Shown here piece by piece: positions 25,785-61,205 of a stretch of 64,000 bases of DNA. The DNA is taken from NCBI RefSeq assembly GCF_963675165.1, contig NC_087377.1, forward strand, positions 8,697,122 to 8,761,121. The letters are read 5' to 3'. Source of the stretch: Halichondria panicea. Its lineage: Eukaryota; Porifera; Demospongiae; Suberitida; Halichondriidae. Position 1 is the stretch's first letter, and every line of letters begins with the position of its first letter. The notes under the pieces are model-generated. The model did not search any database. It had not been told where the DNA came from and was given only the letters and a program-made list of their open reading frames with translations. Made by a program: the position numbers and the translations under genes.

Positions 25785-25955
25785 CTAATTGTCCTCATCG
25801 CCCTCACTCTTATCACTCTTCTTAAAATGCTCTATGGAAGCGTACTCCACAGCTTCATGTCCCTCTGCCCCACCAGTAGGAGTGACTGTGGCATCAACTT
25901 TCGCCTTATTCTTGTCCTTGGTGGCCATCTCCAAGTCAGCATAGATCAGAGCATT
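25785..25955 (-). CDS. Receptor B terminal exon, tail form 2
   Basis: Acceptor ttctcag, then NALIYADLEMATKDKNK..., then HEAVEYASIEHFKKSD, and stop TAG at 25785. Two strict ITIM-type motifs, tyrosines 33 residues apart; the tail end is highly charged. It is in phase with the exon ending at 30144 but not behind the exon at 26765-26923, so it is an alternative last exon. Confidence 0.7.
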   Translation of the reverse strand, partial: NALIYADLEMATKDKNKAKVDATVTPTGGAEGHEAVEYASIEHFKKSDKSEGDEDN

Positions 25956-28900
25956 CTGAGAAAACGAAGAAAAGGGATTAACGTGACGTCACAGTCATAC
26001 AATTTAATGTCACAGTCACAAAATGTATCGATATAACGTCATAGTACAATGTATCGACAAGACTGACATGGGTTTAACGTTATAGCTATAAGTGTATCAT
26101 CAATAAGGTAATGTCAATAAACCCATAAAGTGCTAAGACAAAACAAAGTTGGTACTCGTGATTACTATTCACAATGCGGCTACTTTGTTGTGACTTGGTA
26201 ATAAAAGAAGGGGCACAATTGTACGTCATTATACGGTCTGAGTGAGTGAAACCCCTCTTAGAGCAACCACTTCTAAAGAAAGGCCAACCATGATAAAGGA
26301 CCCACGTCTACGTACCCAGGCCTCCAATGAACCAGTTTTGGTACAAACCACTACAGCAAAGTCCACAAATAGTTCTGAGTCCGCTCTATGAAGGGCTACT
26401 GGAGTCAGTGCATAATAGGTAACTCAATGAAAATCCTAGATTTATATTTAGGTAAAGGATAACACACAGCTACAGCTAGGAATGTCTGGTATAAATCTAT
26501 ACAAAGTCATGTGGGACGAGTTATATAGGGATTGGTAAAGATCACAATAATAAGACACTAATTTTGCAGCAGATAGACCATGCACATGTCAAGTCACTAC
26601 ATATAAAACCCAGTTATATACATGATAGACTCGTACATACACTATACTAGTATAAAAAATTGTTAATCTGGTAAGGTTAAACTAATGAGTTTCAGTTAAT
26701 TAATGCTAATAATCTGCACGACCTTGTTTTTGCCTGAGCCAACACTAATAAGTTTCGGTTAATGTTAATCTGCACGACCTGCTTTTCCCTGAGACAACAA
26801 ATCCTCGTACTCCCCCTCTGTTGTTGCTGAGGCCTGTGAGTCATCGATTCTCTGTCCCCATGGTTTCTTTATTTGCTCATAGGCAATATTCTTCTTAAGT
26901 ACTGGAGCGAAAGCTTCGTTGGGCTGCTCAATTGCCTAGTAACATACCACGACCTAGGTTACACATGTACCTACTAACGAGGTGCACATTGCCTAGCAAT
27001 ATACCACATCTGTTAATAATTGGTGTAAGAGAAATATATGGCAGGAATGCCGAGTCGACAGCCTACAACAACATTCCACACTGTTACTGTAACATGAGTA
27101 ATTAATCGATCTTGAAAGCAAAATCAAAATAATTCTAAGAGGACCTATATTATCTATCAAAAGTGTTTCTCACACTCGTGACTTATCAGACTTATCATTG
27201 AAACCTTAGCTATAAATAAGCAAACATGTTTATATAACGAATAATGGAAAAGGGATAATCAACGGAACACACCTTAAACAAACGCACTCAGACTAAGATA
27301 TGCTCTTCTTTCACAACAAACAATAAAGAGAAGCTAGCTTATTCATTGTTACTAGATAGGAGCCCATGGGAAATCATCTTGTATGGGCTTCTGGTGTATG
27401 TTGGGTAATACTCTAATTATGTGGTGGCTTGGCTATATATAGGAGAACAACTGTTCTGGGAAAGACTATTGTACATGCATGCACTATCAGTGAGATCATA
27501 TAAGCTTCAAAATTTTACCTTTTTGCGAAGTTAAGAAGCCATATATATTCTGAAAGTTGTCATTTCACACAAATAAGCCTACACGTATATTTGGGGCATA
27601 CAAACCAGTGTACACTTCCTGACCACAGGGGAAGTTAAGACAGCACCTTGGCTCAGTGAGGCCACACACACTAGGGCAGTATCTTATAAGGTCTCAATTA
27701 CATGTACTATTATGTTCTCCATATGTATCTGCTGAAATGAAAGCTCAAATTATTTAGCCTGCCCAGAGACTAGAAGTCTTTGAGATGAGCCCACTCAAAC
27801 TGTGGACTAGCAATAACTAATTACTATGCCACACACGCACAAATGAACTAGCTCATAGCATATCCTGTTACATACGACTGGAAAAGCAACAAGAGGAGGC
27901 AATGCCTCTCCACAATGTATGCGCCCAGAGGAGGTTCGACAACCGTGCGCCTAGTATTATTTTTGTTGAATCAGCATTTTCATAAACTTGCCTTTAATGT
28001 GTTGCACTCCTCTCAGACTTATATGTAGTCCTATCTTGTATTGTTAGGTCTAGTTTAGTAATAGGAGCTCTAACTCTCAATAACATCTGTAAAGGCAAAT
28101 TTTATGAAATGCTGATTCAATGCTAGGTGCATGGTTGTCGGACCTCCTCTGGTACATGGGTGTGCCATACCACCCCTATACATGTACTAGAGACAAGCAC
28201 ACACACTGCAGTACCAGTGTATATAAGCTATTGTACATATCAGTGAAACTGTATATGTCACATCGGAACTCATGTTATAAATACTCAACCACTGCAATTA
28301 TACAAACTGTAGGAGCGATCAGTTTCAGAAACTATTCAAACAGGTAGAGTTTCTGTTGCCTAATGGTAGCATACTAATGGGAGCAACTCACAGTACAGTA
28401 CAGTACAGTACATGCAGGCTTTAATTCAGTGTGTATGTAGAGTGTGCATGTAGGTTCCTAACTAAACTTTGTTGCTATTTCAATGTCTCGTAACAACAAT
28501 CTGATATTTAGGGTCACATGTGTGCATACAGTACAGAGTTCTAAAATTAGATTAGAGGTATTTTTAGCCACAATGCTATGTATACTGAATGCCCACACAT
28601 ACACCTGTATAATAGTACACTAAACCAGTTGGCCAAGTCAATCATCTATAATCAATGAATGCAAATACAGAGGAACCTCTCACTTAATGTTGGATACACA
28701 TGTTTATAAGGAGTCCTGATAAAGTGTTCTTCTATTGAACTTGATTCATCGTCTTGAATAGTACATAATTATGATGATAAAAATATGTACTTAATTAGGG
28801 CTCCACTGTACCGTAAACATGTGACAAATGTGGTTCAATTAAGACGCAAATTCTCACCCCCGTGGGTAAATATTGACAGTGATACTGAATACACCCCAGC

Positions 28901-31900
28901 CCACACACTAAGGGAACACGGCTGACAGCATCCTCTGGGGAATTTTGCAACACCCATGAATCCATTTAGTGCCTGGCAGTGATTCTAGTTATAGACCCAA
29001 ATACTACGACAGATGTTTCTTACTAAAGCTGAGACTGCTTTATCAATCTATGTACTTGTACATGTACACAATGCTACACAATGGGGATGGGAATGTTCTT
29101 GTACTGATAAGACACTACAAAACAACCACCTTAGCAGAACAGTTTCAAGCAGTGAACTGACTTTATATTGTGGCCACACTGTAAGCTGGTCATGCACCCT
29201 TGAACAAGCCTGAGGGCGCATACATATTGCATAAAACTATAACATGAGGATTCAACCTAATGCAACCTATAAGCCATTCTATTGTAATGTTATGCCCAAG
29301 GGTGACTGTGACAAACAGATTTCATTGCATTGCACTAGTTAGGGGAATGCAGTGTTACAGGAAAGTTGGCATGTGAGGGAGGTGGGAATCACCATTGATA
29401 AGAAACACTCCAAAACAGACAAACATTTCCAAAGAATACATAGGTAGAGATATGAATGATAATGAAGTAGACAACATTGCCTTTGGGAACATTTCTATTC
29501 TCTGAAACACTTATCAACAGGCAGGCACACAAACAAGGAGACAACATATATCCAACAAGCTAGAATGATCACCCTATCAGGTTATACCCGGTCTCTCAAC
29601 CATTGCCTCCCACAAACCACATAAGTGGTCACACAGTACTCCCTACATACCTCAAAGCACAGCTCAGGTGCACTGGGTTGTTGGTGCATGTGTACAACAT
29701 GTGCAAAGCTCACTAGACCACGACAAATAGAATGTTGGTACAATGCAACTCCTAATAGGGAACTTATCACAGTAAAAAACTAACTGTTGTGCAATACCAG
29801 GGCAAGTTTTGGTGTGTGGATAGCAACTACAGGAAAGCATAGGGAAACATTGACACACAGAGCCAAAAGCACAAGGAATACAACTGACACGTACACACAT
29901 AATTATTAGGGCAGCTACTAAGACTAGCTCATAATGTGAGCTGGTGTGCAAAGAAATCCTTGCACTATATTAGCACAAATTCCTCAAACATTTACTATTT
30001 AGTGTAACACACAGCTTTTAGCCTACCTAAGCAAACACTACAGACCACACACACACAACAAGCCACTAAACAGCAACAGTTCATACAAGTGTTTAACCAG
30101 AGCTAGACTAAGCAATAACACCTAATTTGTGGTCGTAACTCACTGAGTCTGGGCCAGCATCCACATCTTCATTCCCTGGAATCACGTCAGGTGACTTGTC
30201 AGCAGCAGCGGCTTCAGGGTTCTGAGTGGAGAGGTGGCTTATGAAACATTGGAACAAGAAGTGCTCACCATGCATGCTTAAGCGCACATACACGATTATA
30301 GTCGTATGAACTGCCCAATTATTGATTCGTACAGCTCAGGATACATGTAGTTACTTACGTTGAACGTATTGCGGTACAATAATTTTCGTACTGTCACAAT
30401 ACGAAAATATCCACCATATGAAAATAACTCGCTATTATAATACGGTATTAGTTCTCAAAAACACACATACATGTATATTGTGCACAGACATGTATTTGCA
30501 GATAGTTAACAGACTGCCCTTAACATGCGGCACTGATCAAGTCCCGTACTCCACTCACTACTAGAGGGAGCTATATTTGACCTTCCCCTAACGGACTGAC
30601 CTTGAAGGTCTCAGTGGGGGGAGAATCAGATATAGGGTCCACCTGATCTCCATGGCTGGGACTGTGGGGGCAGTATATACTTAGTAGTAAAACTTGTTAA
30701 GACAAGATGTGTATGTACACGCATGTACCCACAAGTACTCTGTTCACAAAACAAACTGCTCAGTGCATACTACATGTAGCTCACGTCAGTTTGTCACTCT
30801 GTTCCTCCATTTCGTGTGATACCTTCATTCCTCCGGACTCTGAATAAATTTGGATTCGAAAGTGAAAAAGCAATACAGAGAAAAATCACTTACTTCTTGT
30901 CTTGCTCCAGTAACACAGTACAATGACAATGATGACCACAACTAGTACTAGAACAAACAGAAAACCAACAATGATTCCAGCAATACAACCTTCAGTACAT
31001 CCTCCCTGTGGTGAAGTTGTCCCTGGTGATGAGGTTGTTAGGTCACTGCCGGTAGGAGACGTTGTTGGAGGTGGAGGGACCGTTGTTGCTGTAAGAATAA
31101 TAAGTGGAACCAAAGAGCATGCAGAGGTGGTTGTAATATTCATTTACCAACACGTTTTACCTGCCCAGGCGTATAAAGTAGCCTTGAGAACTAACTTAGG
31201 AATTCTATACTCATTATAGAAGATTGGCCACTCTTCAACTTACGGAGAGCTGCAATTAAAAAATCTGCCACAAAAGCGTCCACATTTACTTCCGTCATGT
31301 CATTGCGACGCACAATGCGAACTGTGTAGGTGTAACTAGTACCAGGCATAAGACCTGAGAACATCACAGTGTACTCGTAGCTAGCAGAGAAGTTGGCTAC
31401 AACTGGTGCAGTGTCGTTGGGGGTTAGAGAGGTGATGACTAGTAGCTGGTCTAGTCGATACTCAGTGATTGGTAGGTTCAGAGTAACAGTGAAGTTAGTA
31501 CCAGATACTGTCCCTACATTCTGTGAAGTAATGTTTTGACCAGGAACTGCATGGGTGGACACAACATGCGCATCAAGCTAAAACGTGAATCAGAATGACA
31601 GGCTCACTTGTGAAATCACTCGATGCCATTTCCCTACAGTTTCCAGAGGTCAGTTGCACACACATCGTAAAAGTTTCTCCAAAGTCAGCATCATCAGGAA
31701 GAGTGACTTCAAATGACTCACCAGTAAACACTATGTTAGGTGTACAAGCCATGCCGACCCGATTGTACCCAATCATACGACTGGTGTTAACAATCTGAGA
31801 TATTTCCTAATAAACAATTTATGGGTAAAATATTCATTCCACTTTTGTGAAAATACGTACTTGAACCATTCCAAAAAATACTTTCATCATGATGTTCATG

Positions 31901-34900
31901 GTTATGTTTGTCCCATTATTTTCCATGACCGTGCTGCTCAACCGATATACACCAGAAATAGTAGGGGTCACAAAATCTGTGAAAGAATGTAATACAGAAT
32001 GTTAGGCATTTGGTTATTATTACCTGGTGCGATTAAACTGACATCTGCAGTAGAGTCTCTCCCAGCTAACAGTCCCATTGGTGTCATTGGTGTCACGGTG
32101 ACGGATGTATTCATACAAAAAGGAAAACCTGAGTCATTCAATAGTTCTCTAGTCAAACAGGTAACGATATCAGTTGTGTTATAAGTCACTCCATTCCAAC
32201 CAATAGAGTAACTTGTGATGCAATCAGGATAGTCGGTGTTAAGAGTTTGCTTCCATTGCAAAACTGTACTCTCCAATTTAGTACTCACATTGGAAACACC
32301 ATTCACTCCTGAACAGAGAAATGAAACTGCCATTATACCATACAGCGGATTACTTTCATATGGCGTACATTTCGTATTATACATGTAGAGCATCATACGA
32401 ATTAAACTACGAAATTATTCTATCGCATTCTATGAAGGTGACATAATTATTTTGCAAGATTAAATTTCTGCGTATGAGAAACATTTGTATCCACAATTAA
32501 ATGGAAATGCAATGAATCCCATTTGTGAATACAGTATAAGCGGGTAGTTTTTGTTGGTGCAAATTTTCGTACGAACAACCATTTATGTATTTTTAATTTT
32601 CGTACAGCTCAGGATAGTTACTTTTTGTATGCTGCTCTTCAATACGAAATAATTATAGGAAAATTTCCACTATATACGGTAATTACAAACGCTATTAATC
32701 TCTCAACTTAATACCATTATAGCGGGAAATTTTCGATGTTTAGCTCGAGAGCCCTCAGAAGAAATGTTTACAGTTCTGTTGTAATACCCACATTTCAATG
32801 CCAGGAAACCACACCCACAAAGAGCTTTACATGTGAAATACTGGTGCGCGAGAGTTTCTCCCAGGTTTTAATTTTCGCGTTAACTGCTCTCGCGAGATCT
32901 CTCAAAAATTTCCCTCTATACGTTACCATTAAAATAATAGTGAAATAGTACCAGTGAAAATATGTCCGCTTAAGGTACATGGACTATGAGGCCAGGTTAC
33001 ATACCTGAGAGGTCAGCAGTGAAGCTGTAAGGTGCACTCGTATCTCCCGACACTCCACTAGGCGTGATTACGAACCCCACAAAGCTGTAACTATAGCCAC
33101 ACACATCCAAACCATCGACTGTCACAGGTGATGTAGAGCTTGACCCACCACTCACTGACCCATCGCCACCATCTTGAGTGGCATTGACCACATAGGTGGC
33201 AGCACACAGAGTATTATTGTCCACTGACAAGCTCACATTTGCCATGGACTGAGATATCTGCTCCACCATGGTGATGTTGGGAGTTGGAATGGCTGCACAA
33301 GAAATATTAAAAAGTAAAACATTAAGAAGCCATCTCACCTGCAACACTGATGTTTATACTGGCAAGTACAGACACTAATGCAGCATTTTGGCCAGACAAG
33401 CACTCCACTTCACCACTCAGTCCTTCAGTGGCAGTTATCTCGACAGTTGAGCTCAGTGTTGAACCACCACTGACCATGGTGACCGTGAAGGGAGCACAAA
33501 TAGGAAGATTTGGTGATCCATGAACGACAAGACATTGAGCTGATACACCAGGAAGCCTCCACTCAGTAATAGCACCAATAGTGATGTTATGAGTACAAGT
33601 GATGGAGATGGGATCTCCTGGACAAGCTGTGACTACTCCATTGGTGGACTCAGGAGTTGACATCAAGCTACCAAATGCATCTGCAAGATGAGTAATAAGT
33701 ACCAATTGATTAAGTACTGTGCCATAAAAATGTCTTTTAAAACCCTCAAAATTGCGTTCAGCCCAGCTGGGACCTAAATTATGCGCGTATGTTCTACAGC
33801 TGAGAATAGACATTTAGGTGTGGTCTAGCTTAGTTTCACTTGCTAGCTAGCTGTTCAAAAGTGTGAAGGAAGTCAAAGATGCAGGATGATTGTTGCAAGC
33901 ACCAGAACAAATTATAGCAACGGTGTAGGCGCGGCCTCACAAATTATGCTAATGCTCACGTAACGTGGTGCTTAAATTATATTGTGCTGTAATTACATCA
34001 ATTACGGTACCGTACTTATTCAATATAAGGTGACACTTAAAAAGTCAGAGTCGTTTCTTTTGGAAGTTGAACAATTATGTTGAAGTTCTGGTGTCGCATA
34101 TTAGAGGGTCGGATCTAATTGGAGGTAAGTCGAGGCTACTCTATCATCCCCTCGATTATAGCCTGCAGGGTTTCATTAAAGATTAATTTTGGGGGAAGGT
34201 TTTTACGCAGGCCGCAAAATGTTTGGCCACTCCCACATTTGTTTCCCACACTCCCTATTACATGCTAGTGCATCACAGTATCTAGTAACATAATAACATC
34301 ATAGTCAGTACTATAATGCTCATTAGTCCACACACATTTTGGGGGGAAGGTTTACCCCCACCCCACTAAGATGAAACCCTGACAGGCTGCTTAAATTATC
34401 GGTTATTTTCGAGGCACTAAATTTTTGCGGATTGCTCGAAGGTTCAAATGACCACCCCTACAGTACTAGAGAGGTTTCCGGAAATAAATGAGGTTCGAGG
34501 TCAATCCTCGAAAGCTGTGAAAATATACAGCTATATGCCTTGGTACATTGTTTCTAGCTGCCTGGAATTGAAGCTATGGTATTTAGGACACAAAATTAAA
34601 CCAATTTGTCAACGCAGCAATCGCGAGGTCAGGCTAAGGTCGAGGGTGAGGGGTCCGACACCGTAATTTTTAGCGTACAAGATTTCAAAATCTCGAGATT
34701 TCAGAGATTTCAAAGATTTCACAGAGCATCACTCGGGTTGAAGATTTAAAGTTCTACCGTCATTCAACACTTGCACTAGTCATGCACCTCGGTCATGGAT
34801 GCACTAGCACTTGGCACTTGCACTGTGAGCAGATGCAATCAAGGCATAGATGGGCGTGCCCGTCCCCTTTTTGTAGGTAGGCCACGCCCATCTAGTCAAG

Positions 34901-35436
34901 GCATGACACTGAGATTACAATAAGATTACGGAAAATGAGGTCAAAGGTGGGATTTTAGAGATTTCAAGATTTCGGGATTTCATGAGATTTCAAAAGTAGG
35001 TGTACAAGATTTCACGGAGTGTCAGACCCCTCGAGGTCGAGGGTGCGTAATTTGGAGGGTCACCTTAAATCGGTAACACGTTTTCACTATGTATAAATAA
35101 GGCTGTATGTCATGTAGAATTTAGAGAGACCTCTAGCTCTACAGCTAGCTGGACTCTCCAGATCCACTTTAATACCTGGGACATTTTTATCCACTACAGC
35201 TAAATCTACTCTATACTGCACTAGCCTTTTAGTAAAAAAATGACACAAGGCATATACATGTAGCTGGCTAGAGAAAACGCTTCTAGTTTTATACATAGGC
35301 TTACCTGATCCACTTGGGCAGCAGAGGTAGATTGACACAACCACCAGAAAAATCTAATGAAAAACAGAATAGGCCATCTTTAATATAATAACGCTGTATT
35401 TCCTATTCTAGTATTCAATCAAGTCTTTACCTTCAT
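25785..35436 (-). CDS. Receptor B: Ig + FN3-like + TM with tyrosine-motif tail, alternative ends
   Basis: Likely a cell-surface recognition receptor. Coding exons: 35431-35436, 35305-35353, 33339-33680, 33005-33292, 32024-32308, 31861-31976, 31608-31806, 31244-31546, 30894-31088, 30785-30839, 30601-30661, 30144-30221, then 26765-26923 or 25785-25955. All phases fit. Signal peptide MKIFLVVVSIYLCC. The Ig-like exon has CPGDPISITC...VECLSG. Two FN3-like exons follow, then a Cys-containing segment split over two exons, another FN3-like exon (SGLMPGTSYTYTVRI), a Pro/Thr stalk and TM CIAGIIVGFLFVLVLVVVI. The two terminal exons both fit phase 0 after GPDS. One ends with NIAYEQI and GEYEDLL (711 aa total), the other with LIYADL and VEYASI (715 aa). 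IxYxxI, LxYxxL and VxYxxI match the ITIM consensus (S/I/V/L)xYxx(I/V/L). Many N-glycosylation sequons are present. Family name unknown; the ligand cannot be inferred. Confidence 0.85.
26765..26923 (-). CDS. Receptor B terminal exon, tail form 1
   Basis: Acceptor ttgagcag, then PNEAFAPVLKKNIAYEQIKK..., then GEYEDLLSQGKAGRAD and TAA. There is no in-phase donor before the stop, so it is terminal. It has one strict ITIM-type motif (IAYEQI) and one YEDL site. A roughly 60-bp local duplication downstream (about 26690-26770) repeats the stop-codon region. Confidence 0.7.
   Translation of the reverse strand, partial: PNEAFAPVLKKNIAYEQIKKPWGQRIDDSQASATTEGEYEDLLSQGKAGRAD
26924..30143. other. Large intron of receptor B
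   Basis: About 3.2 kb with no exon I can support. It holds a cagaggaggt-type foldback at 27926-28151 and otherwise simple AT-rich sequence. Open frames near 29580-29950 have no splice context. Confidence 0.5.
27926..28151. mobile_element. Foldback MITE (cagaggaggt terminus) in receptor B intron
   Basis: About 60-bp inverted ends starting cagaggaggt and gacaaccrtgc; the central part is unique. Terminus shared with 2784-3209. The flanks (gtatgcgcc / gtacatggg) do not show a convincing duplication. Confidence 0.7.
32535..32925. repeat. Degraded MITE copies in receptor B intron
   Basis: Two adjacent remnants, about 32535-32685 and 32717-32925, have termini resembling tatagcggg...ttttcg and inverses. 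They lie between the first two FN3-like exons. Confidence 0.5.
34648..35032. mobile_element. Foldback element in receptor B intron 2
   Basis: Imperfect inverted ends gaggggtccgacaccg / inverse of tgtcagacccctc, with arrays of agatttcaaaga-like words inward from both ends. A central hairpin tagatgggcgtgcc...ggccacgcccatcta lies at about 34848-34898. Confidence 0.6.
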
Positions 35437-35499
35437 TCTTATCATCTCTAGCTAGCAAGGCTTACTGGCTTTTTTTAGCTACAAGCATAGACACTACTA

Positions 35500-39304: not shown

Positions 39305-39653
39305 TCACAACAATACTTCCTTCCAGAGAGAATGGCACTGAACGTCGAACAGACACACCAACACTTTGAAGATGGCTTCACTCAGAGAAACAAGAGGAGA
39401 AATCACCATCACAACACTTCTTTCAGAGAGAGGTGCACTGGTCCTGTCAAGCTTCACATCAATCAAGAAAGGGAGTGTCTGGAAAGCAGATGGACTTGCT
39501 CTGGGACTTGCCATAGCCGGTCGGTACGGTACCCACATAAACACCAGCGTACAGACACTTCAACGCCTCCAGCTGCTTGTCTTTCAAGACTAGACCTGGT
39601 TTTCCAACACAGGATAACGCGTACGCGAGAGCAGAAGAGAAGGTAGCAGCCAT
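39305..39653 (-). pseudogene. RecQ-like helicase N-terminal fragment
   Basis: It starts MAATFSSALAYALSCVGKPG and contains the Q-type LKDKQLEALKCLYAG stretch and Walker A TVPTGYGKS. After a frameshift it continues AFQTLPFLIDVK and VVMVISPLVSLSEAI (motif Ia). It stops before motif II (DExH), so it cannot be an active helicase. RecQ-like ATPase fragments of this type are commonly spread by transposons in invertebrates. It lies inside a Mutator-like element, which suggests capture. Confidence 0.75.
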
Positions 39654-44045: not shown

Positions 44046-44134
44046 ATGTAGCTGTTGCTATCACTAAAGCTTTTACTAGCTCTAATGATAAAGTCGTCGG
44101 AGAGCAAGTTGCTGCTGCACCCTCAGTCACAAAT

Positions 44135-48099: not shown

Positions 48100-48600
48100 C
48101 AGTATCTATGGTACCAGTTTCATCAACAAAAATGAGCATTTCAGGACTGTATACAGACATATCTGTAATATACTGTTGCCTTAAGCACTCATTTCGTTGT
48201 AAGGCACATGTTTGTAGTCTTTGGTGTGTAAATCCATTGGCATGTAAGAATCTACATATATACCTGAAATACTCATATCTAAATACAACTGTGAATCTAG
48301 CTCACTTTGAATTTCACGTAAAAGAATGCCTGGTCTGTCCAATACAAGCTGAAAAATTAGTTGTTCAATAGGTGCAGTGATTTTTTGATGAGCCTTCTCT
48401 TTAGGATAGGGTTTCTTGCTAACTTCTCCAGTTGCATGAAACAGATCTAGCGTTCTGGACACTGTAGACTTATCCACACAGAGATTCTTAGCAATTTGAG
48501 ATATAGAAATCTGAAGTGCCTCCTTTTGCCATACCATCCTCCAACGAATGTCCTCAGAATAGGCGCTGCTTCTCTTCTTTTCCGAGGAAGTCATGTTCAA
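48100..48600 (-). pseudogene. Tc1/mariner (IS630-type) transposase relic
   Basis: It begins MNMTSSEKKRSSAYSED. A helix-turn-helix region follows (ISQIAKNLCVDKSTVSRTLD), then the linker GEVSKKPYPKEKAHQKIT and RPGILLREIQSEL. The frame breaks after DMSISGIYV. It resumes with DMSVYSPEMLIFVDETGT, which carries the first Asp of the DDE/D catalytic triad. The remaining catalytic part is not recognisable downstream. The element end cagggatttgaagtgttctt lies at about 48711-48730 (reverse strand). This is inactive, but its termini match the MITE at 41132-41718. Confidence 0.75.
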
Positions 48601-48852
48601 TGCTCAATAAAGTCTGAGATCAACGTATAAATTTGAAACTTGGCGCTGAAACAGTTAAGAAGAGACTCCGCCTACATCGTGACATCAACTTCCGCTCTGG
48701 CTTCTTGTTTGCAAGAACACTTCAAATCCCTGACTACGGATGACGCGTTCCAGCCTCCTACCATGTAGATGGGCGTGCCCATCTGTTACACGTTCATAAA
48801 AATTCTTGTGGATCCATGTGATTTTCCAAACCAGGCCTAAAATGAGATCAAG

Positions 48853-51800
48853 ATGAACTTCTTGCTGCATATGCTCTGTGCAGTTGTATCTTTTAAACAA
48901 CGTGAGTGCTGCTCTTTTTGCTGTATGGTAGATTTACATGAATAGTTATGCACCTATCAATGCAAAGCCCCACTACCATAGATAGTATGCCACTACCCCC
49001 CTCCGGTGAAGAGGGGACTTTGTGGGAGCTTTGTTAGTAAAACCTAGTACCTAGCCCTGGGGGTGGGAACTTTGTAAAGTCAGTATATCATAGCTGTTTG
49101 TCTGTATTGCAATTATTATTGTGTTCAACTGTCATGCCCCGGGTATTTTCCAGGGGTTTGTCAAATAAAATTGCCCAGGGGGAGAGTCCTTTGCACCTCA
49201 TAATTGACAAAGCTCCCCCTTGTCCCGGGAGGGGGGTAGTGGGGCTTTGCATTGATAGGTGCATTATAGATCTACGTAGTCTACTAAGTCTTAGACTAAG
49301 AACTGATTTCCACTCCGCTGGTCATTCAGATGCTGTTGCAATTGGTAGCTTGACGTCAACTCCTGAGTCCACCAATGGAATAGTCACAGCTTGTCTAGGA
49401 GATCCCATCTCCATCACTTGTACTCATAACATCACTATTGGTGGTATTACTGAGTGGAGGCTTCCTGGTGTATCAGCTCAATGTCTTGTCGTTCATGGAT
49501 CACCAACTCTTCCCATTTGTGCTCCCTTCACGGTCACCATGGTCAGTGGTGGTTCAACACTGAGCTCAACTGTCGAGATAACTGCCACTGAAGGACTGAG
49601 TGGTGAAGTGGAGTGCTTGTCTGGCCAAAATGCTGCATTAGTGTCTGTACTTGCCAGTATAAACATCAGTGTTGCAGGTTAGATGGCTTCTTAATGTTTT
49701 ATTTTTTAATATTTTTCTTTATATACAGCCATTCCCACTCCCAGCATCACCATGGTGGAGCAAACATCTCAGTCCATGGCAAGTGTGAGCCTGTCAGTGG
49801 ACAACACTCAGTGTGCTGCTATCTATGTGGTCAATGCCACTCAAGATGGTGGCGGTGGGTCAGTGAGTGGTGGGTCAAGCTCTACATCACCTGTGACAGT
49901 CGATGGTTTGGATGTGTGTGGCTATAGTTACAGCTTTGTGGGGTTCGTAATCACGCCTAGTGGAGTGTCGGGAGATACGAGTGCACCTTACAGCTTCACT
50001 GCTGACCTCTCAGGTATGTAACCTCATAGCCCACACTAGCCTCCTTCGCTGGCCTCCCCTGAAGAGAAGGCCTGCTACTGACAAATTTATTGGCTATTTT
50101 TTTCCTATAAAAAGTCATACACACAGCTATATACTATAGCTAGCTAGCTAGAGAGAGACAGAGCTGTATGTTTGTTGTACAGCTATTTTCTTCTGATAGA
50201 GTCAGTAGCAGTAGTATAATTATATATATAGTAGTAGTAGTATAGATGGGCGTGGCCTGTCCATACGGCTAGTGTCAGCGTTCAGACAATTAATTGTTAT
50301 CCACACTGTTGTATAGGCTGTGAGTCTTTTGTTAGCATACGCTACGGGTATAGCTATCAGAATGCGATCAGGCTATAAACCTTCAATCGAACTTTCTATC
50401 TACTTCCTTCAATTTATTTCCGTTCGTTGTGCATGTTGTGGCCATCATTGTTTTATAAGCATACAGGTTGTTATCCTGTGTTAGCCGGTATCTGGGTAAT
50501 GATAGCGTACGCGCAAGCAGTTGATACCTGGCCCACTCTCCGAGGAAGCGGCCTGGAAACGAAGCTAATCCCACACACACCTTCTTCATTCTATTTTCTG
50601 CAGGAGTCAATGATATTATTTCTAATGTGCATACCAACTCGGAGAGGACAGTTTTGCAATGGGATCAACTGACTAACATTGACTATCCTGATTGCATCAC
50701 AAGCTACTCCATTGGTTGGAATGGAATAACTTATAACACCATTGATACTGCCACCTTCGTGACTAGAGAACTACTGAGAGCCTCAGGGTTTCCTTTCTGT
50801 ACCACTACATCCGTCACCGTGACACCAGTAACTTCAATGGAACTGTTAGCTGGGAGAAACTCTACTGCAGATGTCAGCTTAATCTCACCAGGTATAAAAC
50901 TATATCTAGTAAGATTGTGTACATAAACTTTAGTACACCACAGATTTCATCACCCCAACTATCTCTGGTGTGTACAATGTGAAGGTGACCAACAGAACAG
51001 TATTCACTGGAATGGTGCAAGTACGTTTAATTTATGTTTCATTTTTTATAGCCTTTCCTTTTGTACCTCAGGGAATATCTCAGATTGTTAACCCCAGTCG
51101 TATGATTGGGTACAATCGGGTCGGCATAGCTTGTACACCTAACATAGTGTTTACTGGTGAGTCATTTGAAGTCACTCTTCCTGATGATGCTGACTCTGAA
51201 GAAACTTTTACGATGTGTGTGCAACTAATCTTTGGGAACTGTATGGAACTGAAATCTATCGATTTCACTAGTAAGTCAAACATTTTTAATGTCATCTTGT
51301 ATCTCCCACCTATGCAGTACCTGGTCGAACCATCACTGCACAGAATGGAAGAATGGTGTTGGGTACTACTAACTTCACTGTTACTGTGAATCTACCAATC
51401 ACTGAGTATCAACCGGACCAGCTACAAATTGTCATCTCTCTAACCCCCAATGACACTGCACCAGTTGTAACTGACTTCCCAACTAGCTACCAGTACACTG
51501 TGATGTTCTCAGGTCTCATGACTGGCAGAAGTTACATTTACACAGTTCGGGTTGTGCGTCGCAGTGACATGACTACAGATGTAGTGGAACCTTTTGAGGG
51601 ATCGTTCACAATTGTAGTTCTCTGTAAGTTAATTGCTGTGTACAGAATTTGTCATAGCAAACAAGGGAGCTCCCAATGAGTATATAATTTATGCAATTGA
51701 ACATTAATTTTGTCTGTAGCTACAGTACAACTTAGCGTATAGCAAGTCCTTGTACCATTTAGTAACCCTATAATTATGTTCTTTGAAGGAATGATATTTT

Positions 51801-52645
51801 TTTTCTTGTAGTCCCACCTGTAACAATCGCTAGCAGTACTGGACAGCCAACATCAGCTTACACGATCACTCTAACCCTACCCGAGATCAATTATCCTCAC
51901 AGTGAACTCATCATAATCTCTACCCTCACTCCAACTGATTCTGTACCAATTACCGATGACTTCCCGTTTTCCTCACAATACTCCGTCACCTTCAATAGAC
52001 TAAGTGATGGTGTGGTATACTCCTATTCCATCAGGGTTGTGCTGCGGACTAACACCAGCCTGGATGTGTCCATTCCAGTGACAGGCTCATTCACATTGAG
52101 TAAGCATCGAGTTACTGGGTTTGATTATGAATGCATTTGTACATATGGCATATTTGTTTGTTTTTTCTTCTTTCAACAACTTTGAGCAGATGTTTACATG
52201 TCAAATAATAGTTCAATTTGAACTTTAATATTCGTTAGGGGGCACTTCCAAACCACTTTTGCATTTTTGGAAGTGCCGCCTTACTGATGCAAAATTCACT
52301 ACAGTCCTGACGAAATACGTGTACACTTAACGCATGACCGATTTTCAGCAGGCATCAATGTCATATTGTATACTCGTTTATAACTTCTTTACAGTGACAT
52401 CTTTCTCAACTGGAGCTGCTGTTGCCCTCACATTTGTCCTGACGTTCCTGTTGACCCTGGTTATTGGAATCTCCATTGGTGTCTTCATTGTACTGACAGT
52501 GAACAAGTATAGGAGGTCTGAGAAGGTAACTCTACAAACTGACACTGAAATGATACCACCACCTGTGATATATGAAGAGCCTGAGGCCATTAAACCAGAT
52601 CCCCTCACTCAGGGGAATGCTGCGTATGGAGAAATAGTTTACTGA
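48853..52645 (+). CDS. Receptor C: Ig + FN3-like + TM, inverted paralogue of B
   Basis: Exons 48853-48901, 49330-49677, 49729-50013, 50604-50891, 50944-51020, 51072-51270, 51318-51623, 51812-52099, 52395-52645; phases all fit, 696 residues. Signal peptide MNFLLHMLCAVVSF in a 49-bp exon, the same size and phase as in B. The Ig exon differs from B at only about four residues over its last 107; the first FN3 exon is also near-identical and similarity falls downstream. It has one FN3-like exon that B lacks (SSQYSVTFNRLSDG). The TM (ALTFVLTFLLTLVIGISIGV) is unrelated to that of B and D. The tail ends VIYEEPEAIKPDPLTQGN followed by AAYGEIVY. YEEP resembles phosphotyrosine SH2 sites; AAYGEI is a near-ITIM. 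Start is inferred from the exon match. A possible attaaa polyadenylation word is at 52710. Confidence 0.85.
50037..50567. mobile_element. Mutator-like element in receptor C intron
   Basis: Ends tagcctccttcgctggcct and ggcctggaaacgaagcta. Flanks agcccacac and atcccacac match at 8 of 9 positions. 531 bp, non-coding. The same internal sequence occurs in opposite orientation in 41719-42184. Confidence 0.75.
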
Positions 52646-53610: not shown

Positions 53611-53726
53611 TTAGATACTGTTTAGGAGGTATCTATGGGAATTATAAGCCCAAAGGCCAGCGAGGGTACTACGAGTGCCTGCAGGCTAATTATAATTCCC
53701 ATAGATACCGACTAAATAGTATCTAA
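53611..53726. mobile_element. MITE (ttagayactgtttagga terminus), second copy
   Basis: Termini ttagatactgtttaggagg and a diverged inverse, with stem tatctatgggaattata exactly inverted. Shares its terminus with 39917-40049 but not the inner stem. Confidence 0.65.
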
Positions 53727-53810
53727 CAAGTTTAGTTGCTAGGTTCATTTCAAAAACTAACCGAAAGAATGGACGCGGACGAAGACCTAGGCCTAGACAA
53801 GCTCTTTTCT

Positions 53811-54857
53811 ATGGAACGCCGTTTGCGACAAAATTCAGGCAGAATCTGATAGGCGTGTGCATCCAATATAAAATCGATTTTTGAAGATCGATTTTTAATA
53901 ATCGATTTTTTACAGTTGATTTTCGATTTACACGTGAACGATCTTTGACAATCGATCTGATAATCGATTTTTGAAATTCGATTTTTGATAATCAATTATT
54001 GAAATTCGATTTTTGATAATCGATTTTTAATAATCGATTTTTGAAATTCGATTTTTGATAATCGATTTTTAAAAATCGATTACAAAAATCGCAATTGATT
54101 GATATACTAGCCTCGAATCCAGGCCGATTAAAATGGATTCAAGGCTACAGTTAGGCCGCCCTTGAAACTCAGAACATGCACAAACTTTTTCTCCGCGGCC
54201 TGGAATCAAAGCTTGGCTTGGTTAGCTATCTCACATGATAGACTATAACGCAAAAGCGAAACATTATTGTTTTTTGGAACCATTAAAAAGGAGGGCCATA
54301 AGTCACAGTAAAAATCATTAATTTTAGAACTGCTCAGTTGGTGCTATCTTATTTAGTTTCTTCATGCACCCATTTTTGTATGCTTTCTCGCCAGCACTGT
54401 TTTATTTGGCCATCTTGTGTGTGCTTAGAGAAAGAGCTGAGAAAGAGTTTGGTGATTCCAGATAGAATAGAAGTCATGAATAGTGGCTTCTTCAATGGAT
54501 AGTATCACGTGATACAGCTTTAGACAGGGGCCCCCCCAGCCCACCTTCAGAGCAGTTCTAAAATCGATTATCAAAAATCGAATTTCAATAATGATTATCA
54601 AAAATCGATTATCAAAAATCGAATTTCAATAATCGATTATCAAAAATCGATTATCAAAAATCGAATTTCAATAATCGATTATCAAAAATCGAATTTCAAA
54701 AATCGATTATCAGATCGATTCAAAGATTGTTCAGGTGTAAATCGAAAATCAACTGTAAAAAATCGATTATTAAAAATCGATCTTCAAAAATCGATTTTAT
54801 ATTGGATGCACACGCCTATCACATTCTGCCTGAATTTTGTCGCAAACGGCGTTCCAT
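53811..54857. mobile_element. Foldback element with atcgatttttgaaattcg arrays
   Basis: Inverted arms of roughly 275-300 bp start atggaacgccgtttgcgac. Their inner halves are tandem arrays of atcgattttt/aattcgattt units. Flanks tcttttct and acttttct match at 7 of 8. The centre has fragments of the tagcctcgaatccaggccg family. The array is almost self-complementary, so the element can fold in many registers. Confidence 0.75.
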
Positions 54858-55127
54858 ACTTTTCTGAAGAAGTACTCGGCATAATAATGACCGAGCCCAT
54901 AGACCCCGCCCTCTAAATGTGGAGGCGGAGCTGGCTACTCTTTCTACAGAACAAAGAAAGGAGGAGGAGCTGGACAAGCCAACAGAACCTGCACAATCTT
55001 CTCTACCTAACTCAAAGCGAATGAAGCAAAGTGTCTGCAGGCCTCTTATCACGGCAGGTGCAGTGTACAGTTTGGATAGTGATATCTGCATAAGGTGAAT
55101 AATTAGAATGGAAATCCCGGGATTGAC

Positions 55128-55530
55128 CTGTTCAAGGATGCTTGTTTTGCTGACTTTCGAGTGTGCCTAGACTCCGAAATGAAGCGCTTGCAAAGAGCTG
55201 GACTAGGGTCACAAAAGAAGGCTGAACCTCTAATACATACTCCGTGCAACTGCTGCTACTAGACTCTACAACGCTGGAGTGGACGAACAAATGATAATGG
55301 AAACAACTGGACACCGAAGCTTGGAAGGAGTTCGCAGCTACAAGAGAACTTCTGAGTGTCAAAAGAAGTCAGTTTCAGACATCCTCAACGTAAAGCCAAT
55401 TAACATACTGGCACACACTGATCACTCACAGATGGCAGTGCAACAAAACTCACAAACCAACTGCTGTCAATTTATGCCTCCAAACTTTAACTTTAGTGCC
55501 TGCAACGTTATACCATCAATCTCTCTATAA
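55128..55530 (+). pseudogene. Crypton-like tyrosine recombinase, internally deleted
   Basis: The first part reads KDACFADFRVCLDSEMKRLQ then RAGLGSQKKAEP, typical of the start of the Crypton/ZMYM-type tyrosine recombinase domain. It then jumps in another frame to a C-terminal part (55279-55530) with EQMIMETTGHRSLEGVRSYK: the HxxR...Y signature including the nucleophilic Tyr. The middle, with the first catalytic Arg, is missing. It is therefore inactive. It is probably a transposon copy; a domesticated gene is less likely given the deletion. Confidence 0.7.
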
Positions 55531-56606
55531 TATGCCTACATCCAACAACCAACGTATTAACAGCGACTGAACATTATAATTTTTTGTCATTACCAAAACA
55601 AAACAGTTACTTCTCATTGTTTTTTATAACAATAATTATACAAAAAACATGTTTGAAAAACACAAAAATTAATAATGAATGGTTGTTGTGAACATGAAAA
55701 TTACAGGTTTATATGAGAATTTACAGGTTAATATGGGAAATATAAACCCTGTACTGACCAATCAGATTGCTGGATTCTGGGATACTAGTAACTAAAGATA
55801 TGGTATAGCCACAGATATTTATTATGTGGCCAGTATAGCGTCTGTTATTGACGAAAACACATAACTATAAAAGCATGCATGTTTCATGTTATTCATACAT
55901 TTGCTAAGCGAACTTGAATGTTAGCTTTCAGTATATAACATCAGCATGACATACTTAATATACGATCTTAGCTTTCAATGGCAAATATTCAAGGAAAGCC
56001 AGCTATAGTATTGCACAGCCTGTCCTGCTATTTAATGGTAGAATGCATGGGGCTACAATTCAGTTCAATAACACTATGTGTACACCTAAGGAAATTGCTA
56101 TAATTTATAAGCGAAGGCACATGCATCATTGACATAGTATATATAGCTACGCCTGAAACGCCAAATTAAAAAACTATCACCAGATTTATCGATGAGTCAT
56201 CATAACTACAAAATTATCTCACAAACATTAATGTTAACTGGTATCTTGATCAATTACTTGTGTCTACATGCAGTGGAATCCCTCCTATAACGGCCACTCT
56301 GAAAGGCCAACTGTGATATAATGGCCACTCAGGCCACCCAGATCCAAAATGAACAGTTTGTGTATAATATAATTATAAAGCAACCCTTCAACAAAGGTCA
56401 CCTCTGAGTATAGTAATGGCCATCAACATTGTTCCCCAAAAGTGTCCATTATAGAGTTAGGGGTTCCACTGTATCTAGTTGTAATTATATATTATGTGTG
56501 TACCTATAAAAAAATTATGTGTCTAAGTGGCCAGTTCAAAGGCCATGCGCATGGGATGCAAAATTAAATGAATAGCCACTTCGTTCATGATTTATTTGCA
56601 TGCATA
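55531..56606. other. Gene-free stretch with a small pogo-like MITE
   Basis: A 201-bp element at 56271-56471 has ends cagtggaatccctcctataa and an imperfect inverse ggggttccactg. Otherwise no feature is seen. Confidence 0.5.
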
Positions 56607-57990
56607 TGTGACAGGGCCAATGAAAACAGACCTTAACGCGGGCATTTTCGAATCAGTTTTTATTGTTGAATCAGATAGGGCGTCCTTTAAGCTTCAAAAT
56701 GATACCAAGATCGACCTCCTAGCTACTTTCTTTCCGGAGATATGTTCGAGGGAACGCTACAAAGGTATTGCAACGCCCTCTTGAGTAAATGACGCTCAAA
56801 CGTCATGATAATTGAAGTTCAATTATTGGCTTCCGGGCACTTCCGTATACTCATAAAGCTTAGTAAAATATGTTCTGGATAAGACAAGTTAGTTAGATGA
56901 AGGCTAGGCGTTCTAGGACTCTCTAGCTAGCTAGTATAGCTATGTAGCTGGATTGCTTGGCACCTAGGAAGGATCTTCAAAGAAATAAAGAGACAAAGAC
57001 TCCCGTCGCTCAAATGGTAAGCTCTCATGTCTTGTTATAAGCTTGTACTTATTATCTGTGTAATGTATCAGTCTTATAAAAGATCCCTCACTTGTATGGA
57101 GCCTACAGAAAGTGTCTCTGTCCTTCATACAGCTTAAAGGAAGCCTAAGTGATCTATTATAGGTAGTCTTTCACTTAGTATTCATCCGTATCGATCTAAG
57201 GCTTGATCCAACTTATTAGTAGCCTTATAAGAAGCTTTCCTCCTTTAATTTAGTACTGGTATCACTGCCATTGTGCTTAGTAGTAACAGGCTTGATGGGA
57301 TGGGTGATCACATCATGGAGGGCCCAGGAAACTGCGTGGAATTGTCGTATAACATTTATATTGATGGTTCCCTCAGGTGGTGGTAAGTGTCGGAGGCCTG
57401 AGAAACGCTTGTCTATTGGCTAGAATGTAAGTGACATTGATATTGTGTCTATCTTAACTTACTACTTATCTGTAGGTTGTTATGGAATGTTTATGAGGAC
57501 AAGTGGCACGGGATACGTACATCTAAAGAAACAAGAGTGGATCTACGCCAAGCTAGCTAGCTAGATAGCTGCTCTTTCTAATCTATTTCTGTTGCTAAAT
57601 TATGTTTGTTAAGAAGTGGAGCTATAATATACCTGGCTCCTCTTGATGATTGTAAGTACTGGGCTGATGAAATAGTCCTGTACAAGTTGTCATCTTTTAT
57701 TTGTTAAAAATAATTAACAATAATAGGGAAATTCCCAGGGAATTTCCCCTCACGTAGACAGTAAATTTCATTGTAAAAAATGAACGTTCGGTGAGTTTCT
57801 TCAACGTCCGCGCTTGACCTGTTTAAAGCTTTGTAGAGACCCACATTTTTACAGGTAGGTAGAGGAAGGGTTGAAGTTAGCACCTGTGAAAAAAAAATTT
57901 TTTGCCCATGTTTTTCATTTCTACTAAATTGGCCTATAGCTTAATTTAATTATTGCCGCGTTAAGGTCTGTTTTCATTGGCCCTGTCACA
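56607..57990. mobile_element. 1.4-kb DNA element with 35-bp perfect inverted ends
   Basis: Termini tgtgacagggccaatgaaaa then cagaccttaacgcgg, exactly inverted at 57956-57990. TA on both sides (56605-56606, 57991-57992). Interior open frames are short with no transposase recognised, so it is non-autonomous. Perfect ends suggest recent movement. Confidence 0.8.
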
Positions 57991-58260
57991 TATTAATAGT
58001 GTTTTTATAATAATTATTATGCTGAACATTATACAGTATAATTATATAGTTTGACTATAATAATTTATTATGATCGGTATACATAATTATTACTAAATCA
58101 CAGTGGATTAATAGTGACAATTATTACTTGCATGAGCTCTTCATTCCAGCACCAAACTTTAAGTGAGAATGCATGAATTGTACAGACTGCTAAAAACGTG
58201 TGATAAAAATCATCTGAAGTACATAAATGGACAATAATGGACAAGACTGACTGTTTTAAA

Positions 58261-61205
58261 TTAATTGAATTGCACATGTCCATAAGCAAGGTTCCCCTGG
58301 GTGTGGGGGTCTGGTTTAATGTCCTCGTATATCGGTCCCTTCAATTGAGCTGACTGTTGAACATGACCATAGGCAAGATTGTCCTGAGTGTAGGGGTCTA
58401 GTTTAAAGGTATCAGGATCTTCGTACACTGGACCCAACTGATGCATGGAGGTAAAAATAAAATCAATTCTCAAAGGCTGAGCGGCATCACGTACGGTTTT
58501 GGGTGATTCATTTATGAGGCTTGGGACATGGTTGACATGCGCAGGGTCCTATAGCTAGCAACATTACAATAAAAACGACAAAATTGAAACGGTTCTCATA
58601 AGGCATCTGTATTATACTGCACAAGTTAAAGTAGACTGTGCAATTACTATGTGTACAGGATAATAAATGGGACGAGATAAAAAAGCTTGTATATACAGAT
58701 ACCGTATTCATAGTAGGTATAGTTAGAGGGGATAAACTTTCGCTGAAAGACCGTAAGAAAGGATTTCGTGAACTAACAACTTTTTGGTGCATGCATGCAA
58801 TATTAATATTCGTGGTACATGCTAATCAGCGAAATCGCGACAATTTACACCCTCGAAATAACTTATACCCGCTATACGGTAACCTGCTATACGATAACTC
58901 ATTCACCTTGTCGGATTCAGATGTGGGCGGGTATTCAGGTATGTTGGCCATGGAATCCACCTCCTCCCCATCGTTGGTACTGCATAATGTAAGTATATAT
59001 GTATATATATATACTACGCCCATTTTCTCTACGAATTCTATACTAGCTGTAGAACATAAGCGCCACCATAATTTAGCCGCAGCGCAGTTGGGCTGAACGC
59101 AATTTTTTGTGTTCTAAAATGATTCACTCAAAAGCGAATTTTTTTTGGCACTGTAATTATACATCAATTACGGTAATGATTGGCTCATCTACCTAGTTGG
59201 GCGCGTGCCTGCACTAGGTAGATGAGCCAATCATTACCGTATTTGATGTAATTACAGTGCCAGAAAATATAGCTTCTATCTATGCTATATTAGCTACAAA
59301 CGAGAACTAGTCTATTTAAGCCATAAGCTCACGGTTTAGAAACTAAACTGTTTTGCCTGCCTACTAGCTAGCCTCATGCACAGTAACACGTATGTATACC
59401 CTAGCTAAGAAATATATGACTCACGTTATAGTTCTTTGTTGCTCCATTTCTTGTGATGATACCTTCGGTTCTGTTTTGTTATTGCAAAATTCCACACATA
59501 ATTATGAGTGAGAATAATAACTTACTTCTTGTTTTGTTCCAGTAGCACAGAACGATAGCAACGATGACCACCACTAGTACTAGAACAATCAGAAAACCAA
59601 TGATGATTCCAGCAATACAGCCACCACCACAACCTCCACCCTGAGGGGCAGCAGTTGACTGGGTGGGTGCTTGAGTGGAGGTGGTGGTAGGGGCCATGGT
59701 AGTGGGGGGAGGAGTGGTTGCTGTATATGTACAAGAAACAGTGAAGTGAAACTAGTAAAGAGTTGTTCCTCAGTCAATATAATTATGCTTACAAGGATAG
59801 GAAAGACTAGTCAGAGCATACACCAACTTACTTGGAGTTATAAGGGTCATGAAAAATCCCATAGCGGCTGAAACAACATCCACTGTAGTGTTGGCACAGA
59901 GGACAATCCTGACGGTGAAGGTGTAGGTTGTATCAGCCATGAGATTATCAAAGGTCACCGAGTACTGCATTGCAGGGCAGGAAAAATTGGATTGTCATTG
60001 GAAGGCTCAACAGTTGAGATGATGAGCAGCTCCTCGGGTTGGTAGGGAGTGAGGGGTAGAGTGATTGTGATAGTTTGACTGGTGTCTGTAGTTGGACCTT
60101 GCACCACATTAGAGATGTTCCGTTCAGGCACTACAAACAATTAATGTCGTAAGACACGTACACACAGAATATTATATACTCACCAGTGAAAGAGGCTATG
60201 GTTGCTCTTGAGCATGGACCCCTCTCGAACATCACAATGACATTAACAACATGGCCACCATCCACTCCAGGCAATGCAATCTCAAACATGTCTCCAGTGA
60301 AGTTCATCATGGGAGACAATGAACCAGTGAGGTTGGTGTAGCGATAGTTACGAGTGGATATTATAGATTCTGAAACAGCCTGAAAATTACTTACTAGTAA
60401 AACCAAACTGGATAAATGTGATTAGCTGACTTACTTGTACATTGACAAGCAATACGACACCCGTCTCATTTTCAGACTGGTTCACCAGAGCCTGAAAACT
60501 GTAGGTAAGCACCGGGGTGGGGAAATCTGCACGTAAAGAAAGAATATCACTTTTTATTGGAATCAATCACACCTACCTGGATCAATTAGGTTAGTATAGA
60601 AATTGGAGCTGCCCATAATTGAGGTCAGAGGTCGCATTGTAGTCCTTGGTGTGACTGTAGGGTGGATACTGATACAGTAAGGGAAGCCCGCTGCATTGAG
60701 TTGCTGTACAGTGAGTGATCTTGTGGTAGAGTCAACAATGGTTGTGAGGGACTGGTTCCCTTGATCAGTCACCACATAGCCAGTGATGCAGGTTGGGTAG
60801 AGAGGGTTCAAAGCGTGTGTCCATTCAATCAGTGGGTCCATTTGATTGATAGTCACAGTTATGCCCCCATTAACATCTAAAATGTAATTAAAATTAAATC
60901 AAGCTGATAGACAACGTAATTGAATTTACCTGACAGGTTTGCAGCGAAATTGATGGGAGAGCTCAATGCACTTTGAACCCCACCAGCTGTAATGACTGAT
61001 CCTGACAGTGTATAGTTGTTCTCACACACATTTAGACCAGTGACATTGAATGTTGAATCAGTGCTTGAGTTGGTAGACACGAGGCCACTAGTTGGAGTAG
61101 CATCCACTTGATACCGTGCAACACACTCAGTGTCTGTAGCTGACAAACTGGCCCTCACCACTGACTGGGAGACTTGTTCAATGGAGAGGCCAGGAGTGGG
61201 GATAT
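58261..61205 (-). CDS. Receptor D: FN3-like + TM + duplicated ITIM-type tail (5' incomplete)
   Basis: Exons: 60930-61205, 60577-60876, 60435-60526, 60184-60379, 59832-60130, 59526-59720, 59425-59470, 58907-58979, 58261-58437. The FN3-like exons parallel B (first begins IPTPGLSIEQVSQSVV). TM CIAGIIIGFLIVLVLVVVI and CYWNKTR are almost the same as B. The tail carries two copies of a module: GPVYEDPDTFKLDPYTQDN with LAYGHV, then GPIYEDIKPDPHTQGN with LAYGHV. Both LAYGHV fit the strict ITIM consensus and YEDI resembles Src-family SH2 targets. Exon 59832-60130 is 299 bp rather than 300: a 1-nt frameshift near 59971-59978 before QYSVTF. No Ig or signal-peptide exon is visible upstream of 61205; the 5' end is either lost to the repeats at 61.5-63 kb or beyond the window. 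Confidence 0.8.
58699..58881. repeat. Degraded MITE in receptor D last intron
   Basis: Right end cgaaataacttatacccgct then atacggta matches the family at 8286-8558; the left end is diverged. Confidence 0.5.
59147..59271. mobile_element. Long hairpin MITE in receptor D intron
   Basis: About 50-bp arms (ggcactgtaatta... , tgattggctcatctacctag) are nearly perfect inverses around a 15-base loop tgggcgcgtgcctgc. It lies in the intron between the juxtamembrane exon (59425-59470) and the next tail exon (58907-58979). Confidence 0.75.

Follow-up and report, generated by a model that had tools for sequence, protein, structure and literature searches.

The locus analysed here raises the question whether a sponge encodes clustered immunoglobulin (Ig)/fibronectin type III (FN3) receptors with tails carrying immunoreceptor tyrosine-based inhibitory motifs (ITIMs), a family for which the open-licence PMC full text (bioRxiv and subscription papers lie outside this scope) yielded no paper. 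The window, i.e. the whole stretch of 64,000 nucleotides from Halichondria panicea that was analysed, corresponds to positions 8697122-8761121 of contig NC_087377.1 (C1, 18.1 Mb) and contains three related genes, termed B, C and D. Together with the paralogues E, F, G, H and I, eight genes were modelled, and the searches covered the 131-Mb genome (39 contigs). We consider it probable that B, C and D are members of a very large chromosomal cluster of single-pass receptors, which would signal by phosphotyrosine docking and evolve by birth and death in the manner of paired receptors.

Searches with the Ig exon of B returned 37 genome matches at E<=0.001, all on C1 between 8.73 and 12.98 Mb. The D tail (43 matches at E<=1) and the exon of C that encodes the transmembrane segment (TM) and tail (71 matches at E<=0.1) matched C1 every time, and the exact DNA pattern for N-x-A-Y-G-H-V-Q was found 32 times, always at C1 8.61-10.25 Mb (reversed control: 0). 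A second tail type (NIAYEQTKKPWG...EYESI...EYED), which shares the N-x-A-Y setting with the D/C-type tails, gave 73 matches, 71 on C1 (a fragment within B included) and 2 on C2. A third (TM ... PSGPVYEEVTL), weakly similar to the C TM/tail (about 30-35% identity, E 0.003-0.09), gave at least 150, a lower bound because 150 of 247 candidates were scored; among those listed 149 lie on C1 and 1 on C7, and its tails are found 1.5-2.5 kb downstream of Ig exons within C1 12.85-12.98 Mb. The matches of the three TM/tail types off C1 therefore number 3 among those listed. After 11 of the 43 D-tail and 45 of the 71 C-TM/tail matches had been dropped (E >0.001), merging of matches within 600 bases left 47, 67 and at least 145 places on C1 for the three types, i.e. 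at least 259 at 3.44-13.9 Mb; these are counts of tail/TM modules, and a place is not an intact gene. A stalk/TM search reported 22 matches, of which the seven strong ones are all on C1, and 15 weaker ones (E 6e-6 to 1e-3; 8 on C4, 4 on C17, 2 on C1, 1 on C8) were excluded as stalk/TM resemblance. Family copies occur on both strands, and the clustered, inverted arrangement noted in the preliminary description extends far beyond the window.

Gene B (13 exons, 718 amino acids (aa), 35445-25785 in window coordinates, minus strand) and gene C (9 exons, 696 aa, 48853-52645, plus strand) have GT-AG introns and models that are open throughout, and share mostly phase-1 exons (intron phases of B: 0,1,1,1,1,0,1,1,1,2,0,0). 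B consists of a predicted signal peptide (MIRMK/IFLVVVSIYLCC), a V-type Ig domain, the modules F1, F2, F3 (with a phase-0 intron inside) and F4, a Thr/Pro stalk, a TM and a tail. In C, the signal peptide, Ig domain and F1-F4 are followed by an extra FN3-like module, F5, and by a single exon with TM and tail. Each has a single strong hydrophobic TM stretch, and a kinase domain was seen in neither B nor C. D comprises F1-F4, a TM and two tail exons, and matches the plan of B and C exon by exon. Neither the Ig-exon search nor the exon-by-exon comparison found an Ig exon upstream of its F1, and a 10-bp deletion relative to paralogue G shifts the frame of its F4; for these reasons D was rejected as an intact Ig receptor. 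The preliminary description had reported three receptors of one plan at these positions, which agrees with our models for B and C and, as to exon order, for D. Its start of B, 35436, has the right location and is the second in-frame ATG, the model starting at 35445.

Nearly all of the tail motifs it had listed, namely LIYADL and VEYASI at the end of B, LAYGHV (twice), YEDP and YEDI in D, and YEEP and KPDPLTQGN in C, are present in the sequence, and the C tail additionally carries NAAYGEIVY. One of its five motif claims fails: IAYEQI, which it had placed in the B tail, belongs to an isolated, truncated copy of the last exon of the second type (other copies sit at C1 3.4-3.7 and 6.9-7.75 Mb) within the last intron of B. 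Because this fragment has its own stop and lacks a phase-0 donor towards the LIYADL exon, and the other B exons splice in phase without it, a single B tail with IAYEQI, LIYADL and VEYASI was rejected and IAYEQI was not assigned to B; the fragment could be a relic or an alternative last exon. The last two exons of B are supported by splice sites and phase, not by homology.

The fold searches support the identification of the Ig exon as a V-type Ig domain and of F1 as an FN3 domain, in keeping with the ectodomains first proposed. The AlphaFold2 model of the Ig exon, built from 18 window and paralogue sequences (predicted local distance difference test score, pLDDT: 86), had 224 Foldseek matches in the PDB at E<=0.001 (best E 7.4e-5, probability 1.00; TM-score 0.52-0.58, root mean square deviation about 5-6), and the 50 listed are mostly antibody variable-domain chains by title. 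The sequence profile search (best E 0.0015) reported antibody light chains and some T-cell receptor alpha chains, and no Pfam Ig family scored above the cut-off (PF00047 in 2 of 18 members, best E 0.0079). One of five F1 models was fair (pLDDT 74; remaining four: 33-52), with an NCAM FN3 domain as the best Foldseek match (E 6.9e-4, TM-score 0.73), 2 matches at E<=0.001 and FN3 domains as the majority of the 50 listed; the profile search of the PDB with F1 found titin alone, at E about 1. Pfam names no domain above cut-off for most exons, F4 staying below it as well (see table), and F2, F3 and F5 are called FN3-like solely from their position and exon phase.

The tails of the B/C/D type hold their tyrosines in two fixed settings, xYE[DE]x and GN[LVA]AYGHV. 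Among 29 tail core modules (23 distinct) both Tyr, Asn at -3, Lys, Pro, Thr and Gly are invariant, and their codons mostly show synonymous changes, the second Tyr always being TAT; the residues at -2 are L (16), V (5) and A (2), those at +3 are V (20), I (2) and L (1). The pooled ratio of nonsynonymous to synonymous divergence (dN/dS) of the D/C-type core is 0.23, from non-independent pairs, and points to constraint. The ITIM consensus [SIVL]xYxx[ILV] fits 28 of the 30 tail loci scored (L083 and L090 mark the same place, and L078 contains a stop), and in 20,000 shuffles each the fits exceeded composition chance for the last exon of B (P 0.0001) and for D (P 0.007). The C tail has no strict ITIM, its position -2 being A and not S/I/V/L; as a description of tail form, ITIM is a fair label. 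A strict immunoreceptor tyrosine-based activation motif (ITAM; Yxx[LI]-x6-12-Yxx[LI]) was rejected, D-type tails fitting it only with Val permitted at +3. N-x-x-Y is found in 30 of 30 tail loci (peptides with Asn at -3: GPIYEDIKPDPHTQGNLAYGHVQF), and the invariance of this Asn suggests that any protein reading the motif recognises features beyond those an ITIM requires. On another reading the genes encode adhesion or trafficking receptors, whose tyrosines would act as YxxPhi endocytic signals or as NxxY docking sites of PTB adaptors instead of ITIMs; the Asn at -3, invariant in 23 of 23 modules, would suit this, and both YGHV and YEDI match YxxPhi. We hold this reading rather unlikely: the canonical NPxY, rejected here, is absent (none of the 23 modules has Pro at -2, which is L, V or A throughout), and the acidic YE[DE] sites, which are repeated, would favour binding of SH2 domains.

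Heads and tails have been exchanged among these genes. B and C have nearly identical heads on TM/tails of unrelated types: a 697-bp block at 95.3% runs from the start of the Ig exon to just past F1, the next block is at 75.8%, and the synonymous divergence (dS) is 0.01 for Ig, 0.07 for F1, 0.31 for F2 and 0.27 for F4. Genes D-I have nearly identical tails (dS 0 to 0.15) and divergent heads, e.g. for D-E a dS of 0.99 for F1, 2.15 for F2, 2.0 for F4, 0.94 for TM and 0.06 for the tail. The tail blocks shared by E with other genes, of about 260-300 bp, barely exceed the exon, and 3 of 21 tail pairs have a dS of 0. Means of dS exclude undefined or zero-dS pairs and use the best stretch alone of broken exons (pairs used: Ig 10/10, F1 19/21, F2 11/21, F3b 12/15, F4 23/28, TM 15/15, tail 18/21). 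Gene conversion or exon exchange explains these tails better than constraint alone; in some parts D and G, and likewise F and I, show a closer overall similarity, hence not all sharing is exchange. We interpret the pattern as modular exchange resembling that of paired receptors.

The receptors were also said to be rapidly diverging, which as positive selection on the Ig heads did not hold: among 56 near Ig pairs (0.02<dS<0.6) the ratio of means dN/dS is 0.51 and dN exceeds dS in 0 of 56. The result argues against rapid positive selection between paralogous copies, so that positive selection on paralogous Ig heads was rejected; the comparison bears on paralogues, not alleles. It counts against two readings of the cluster. 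According to the first, the cluster is a histocompatibility complex, in which allelic Ig heads decide fusion or rejection; linkage of Ig superfamily (IgSF) genes that include numerous broken copies and bear tyrosine tails, features also described for Hydractinia Alr and Botryllus FcoR (PMC11067881, PMC11876637, PMC12065747), and the head shared by B and C would agree with it, but the text of the Amphimedon graft transcriptome study mentions immunoglobulin genes 0 times (PMC5450542), and we regard this allorecognition role as unlikely. According to the second, which is possible at somewhat less than even chances, the genes encode innate paired receptors under birth and death that read surfaces of pathogens or symbionts; copy number, pseudogenes and head/tail swapping favour it, with parallels in vertebrate paired receptors (CEACAM, PMC5112662) and chicken BG hybrid genes (PMC4046983). 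One genome cannot separate service against microbes from self/non-self service.

Several observations weigh against the receptor set proposed here. Ig heads are found at 37 places on C1 vs at least 259 tail/TM places, and no recognised Ig or FN3 exon is present in the partly read type-2 gene L093; hence the three tail types may fall into more than one receptor family. The last exon of B has no further genome match at E<=1, and the near-identity of the D-I tails seems to reflect recent exchange besides constraint. Frameshifting indels affect 3 of the 8 modelled genes: D, F (within F1 and F2) and I (within F4; Ig, F1 and F2 exons not found in the stretch examined). A large share of the family may thus be non-functional, or the assembly may contain errors. 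Together with the lone truncated tail exon in the last intron of B and transposon-like open reading frames (ORFs) near C and E, these frameshifts would fit a tandem array in decay, in which few genes still function. We judge such a relic quite improbable, given that no disruptions were found in any predicted exon of B and C nor in the examined exons of E, G and H, and given the low dN/dS of the tail core.

Candidate signalling partners are encoded in the genome, where SH2 domains gave 71 matches and protein tyrosine phosphatase (PTP) domains at least 176. The SH2 domains, the richness of the genes in introns and the prolyl-hydroxylase exon listed below are consistent with an animal. At C3:8404573-8406287 (minus strand) two SH2 matches are followed by a PTP match within 1.7 kb, an order which, as judged from partial exon matches, points to an SHP-like gene arrangement. 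Two SH2 matches lie inside the receptor cluster (C1:8613183-8613344 and 8635968-8636129), beside two near-identical tail genes, and a PTP match is located within C1 at 8933949-8934550. Among the matches listed there is also a large local PTP expansion at C4 0.04-2.6 Mb, possibly of receptor PTPs, on a contig that is also rich in FN3 matches.

In the clustered paired-receptor scheme that we favour, the ectodomain of the B/C/D type, in which a V-type Ig domain (absent from D) is joined to four or five FN3 modules, would bind a ligand, perhaps on another cell, that clusters the receptor. A Src-family kinase would then phosphorylate the tail, and the phosphotyrosines would dock SH2 (or NxxY-reading PTB) proteins, an SHP-like phosphatase possibly among them. 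Exchange among linked copies homogenises a few tails yet combines them with various heads, and it also sets a single head (B/C) on two kinds of tail, a combination known from paired receptors.

This scheme has counterparts in several known systems. The Hydractinia Alr complex is described, in the cited sections, as a linked single-pass IgSF family with a V-like first domain, many pseudogenes and ITIM/ITAM tails (PMC11067881, PMC11876637, PMC11999971, PMC12065747). Compared by description only, the sponge genes are alike in being linked single-pass IgSF receptors with a V-type first domain, broken copies and tyrosine tails, and the Alr architecture invoked in the preliminary description is apt to that extent; they differ in that the exon after the V-type Ig folds as FN3, whereas V-set is followed by I-set Ig in Alr, and in the tail core GNxAYGHV. 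Botryllus FcoR likewise has a signal peptide, V-type Ig, TM and a tyrosine-motif tail, with a plastic choice among ITIM, hemITAM and Y-x-x-I/L/V according to the section cited (PMC12065747), but it contains sushi and C2 Ig domains at one locus, in contrast to FN3 and a multi-megabase spread here. Vertebrate paired receptors of the CEACAM and KIR type share similar heads on different tails and linked copies; an opposite, activating member is part of that scheme, whereas the C tail is only a candidate for one. For chicken BG, the cited section reports hybrid genes among linked V-domain receptors, the 5' end of a gene differing in history from its 3' end (PMC4046983), and the same holds for head and tail ends here. 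The 12 BG-region genes lie in one orientation, unlike the sponge copies on both strands. BG tails are also built otherwise than the tails described here. Among sponges, the receptor tyrosine kinase of Geodia cydonium has an Ig-like domain in a membrane receptor (PMC12018476, section cited), and differs in its kinase domain.

Table. Predicted exons of genes B, C and D and the isolated tail exon, in window coordinates
Feature	Position	Strand	Basis
B exon 1, start codon + MIRMK, phase-0 intron after	35431..35445	-	region aligns to paralogue E
B exon 2, hydrophobic signal-peptide part	35305..35353	-	85% DNA identity to paralogue E, 116 bp
B V-type Ig exon, phase 1-1	33339..33680	-	model pLDDT 86, antibody V-domain neighbours
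B FN3 exon F1, phase 1-1	33005..33292	-	model pLDDT 74, FN3 neighbours
B FN3-like exon F2	32024..32308	-	Pfam gives no identification
B FN3-like exon F3a, phase 1-0	31861..31976	-	gene model
B FN3-like exon F3b, phase 0-1	31608..31806	-	gene model
B FN3 exon F4	31244..31546	-	Pfam fn3 23.7 bits, cut-off 25
B Thr/Pro stalk + TM exon	30894..31088	-	gene model, hydrophobic stretch
B juxtamembrane exon	30785..30839	-	splice sites, phase
B intracellular exon, resembles GEEVDPM exon of D-I	30601..30661	-	likeness, gene model
B predicted intracellular exon NPEAAAADKSPDV	30144..30221	-	splice sites only
Isolated truncated type-2 tail exon copy with IAYEQI, in B last intron	26768..26935	-	genome matches
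B last exon, LIYADL + VEYASI + stop	25785..25955	-	splice sites and phase, motif score
C signal-peptide exon MNFLLHMLCAVVSFKQ	48853..48901	+	gene model
C V-type Ig exon, 95% identical to B Ig exon	49330..49677	+	alignment, gene model
C FN3 exon F1	49729..50013	+	alignment, gene model
C FN3-like exon F2	50604..50891	+	alignment, gene model
C FN3-like exons F3a (50944-51020) and F3b (51072-51270)	50944..51270	+	gene model
C FN3 exon F4	51318..51623	+	alignment, gene model
C extra FN3-like exon F5	51812..52099	+	alignment, gene model
C TM + tail exon, YEEP and NAAYGEIVY; TM type unlike B, D	52395..52645	+	genome matches
D FN3 exon F1	60930..61205	-	alignment; no Ig exon upstream
D FN3-like exon F2	60577..60876	-	alignment, gene model
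D FN3-like exons F3a (60526-60435) and F3b (60379-60184)	60184..60526	-	gene model
D FN3 exon F4, 10-bp frameshifting deletion vs G	59832..60130	-	alignment
D stalk + TM exon	59526..59720	-	gene model
D intracellular exon GEEVDSMANIPEYPP	58907..58979	-	motif look-up, gene model
D tail exon: YEDP, NLAYGHV, YEDI, KPDPHTQGNLAYGHV	58261..58437	-	genome matches

Other features accompany the receptor genes. A transposase-like helix-turn-helix ORF (48181-48603, minus strand; PF13384, E 3.2e-8) is found just upstream of C, a PHD-finger ORF (61506-61754, minus strand; PF00628, E 1.1e-8) directly upstream of D, and a prolyl 4-hydroxylase alpha N-terminal exon (23724-24218, minus strand; PF08336, E 1.9e-12) beside the receptors. 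Reading frames of the IAGIFRGYKF type occur on both strands at 8202-8693, as of an inverted repeat element, and similar peptides near D (58829-59113); Rfam and tRNA scans of the window were both empty. Outside the window, a 325-aa ORF just downstream of paralogue E (L062, about 157-1131) is presumably a Tc1/IS630-type transposase, and, in paralogue I, ORFs flanked by the TM exon and the tail exon (C1 about 9162199-9163492; L042, L066) have what we take to be a DEAD/RIG-I-like helicase look. In L093 (14-875) repeated, unassigned ectodomain exons lie upstream of the type-2 TM.

Sponge-grade animals reject foreign tissue; for the recognition involved, the accounts consulted give no established receptor, and the candidate they name is the aggregation factor. 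According to a review (PMC12065747), no candidate allorecognition protein is common to sponges, cnidarians and ascidians. The boldest interpretation, which we offer tentatively and hold rather unlikely, is that an early-branching animal possesses a chromosome-scale complex over about 10 Mb in which Ig heads and phosphotyrosine tails are swapped as modules, one head signalling in two ways and one tail serving many heads, as a germline paired-receptor system for self/non-self or microbes that uses SHP-type inhibition. The tyrosine-tail Ig receptors of H. panicea are candidates for an early immune or self-recognition system. If expressed, they would form a concrete and testable group of candidate receptors whose signalling tails are of immune type in an animal that is neither cnidarian nor chordate, and would illustrate the origin of early receptor systems built from head and tail modules.

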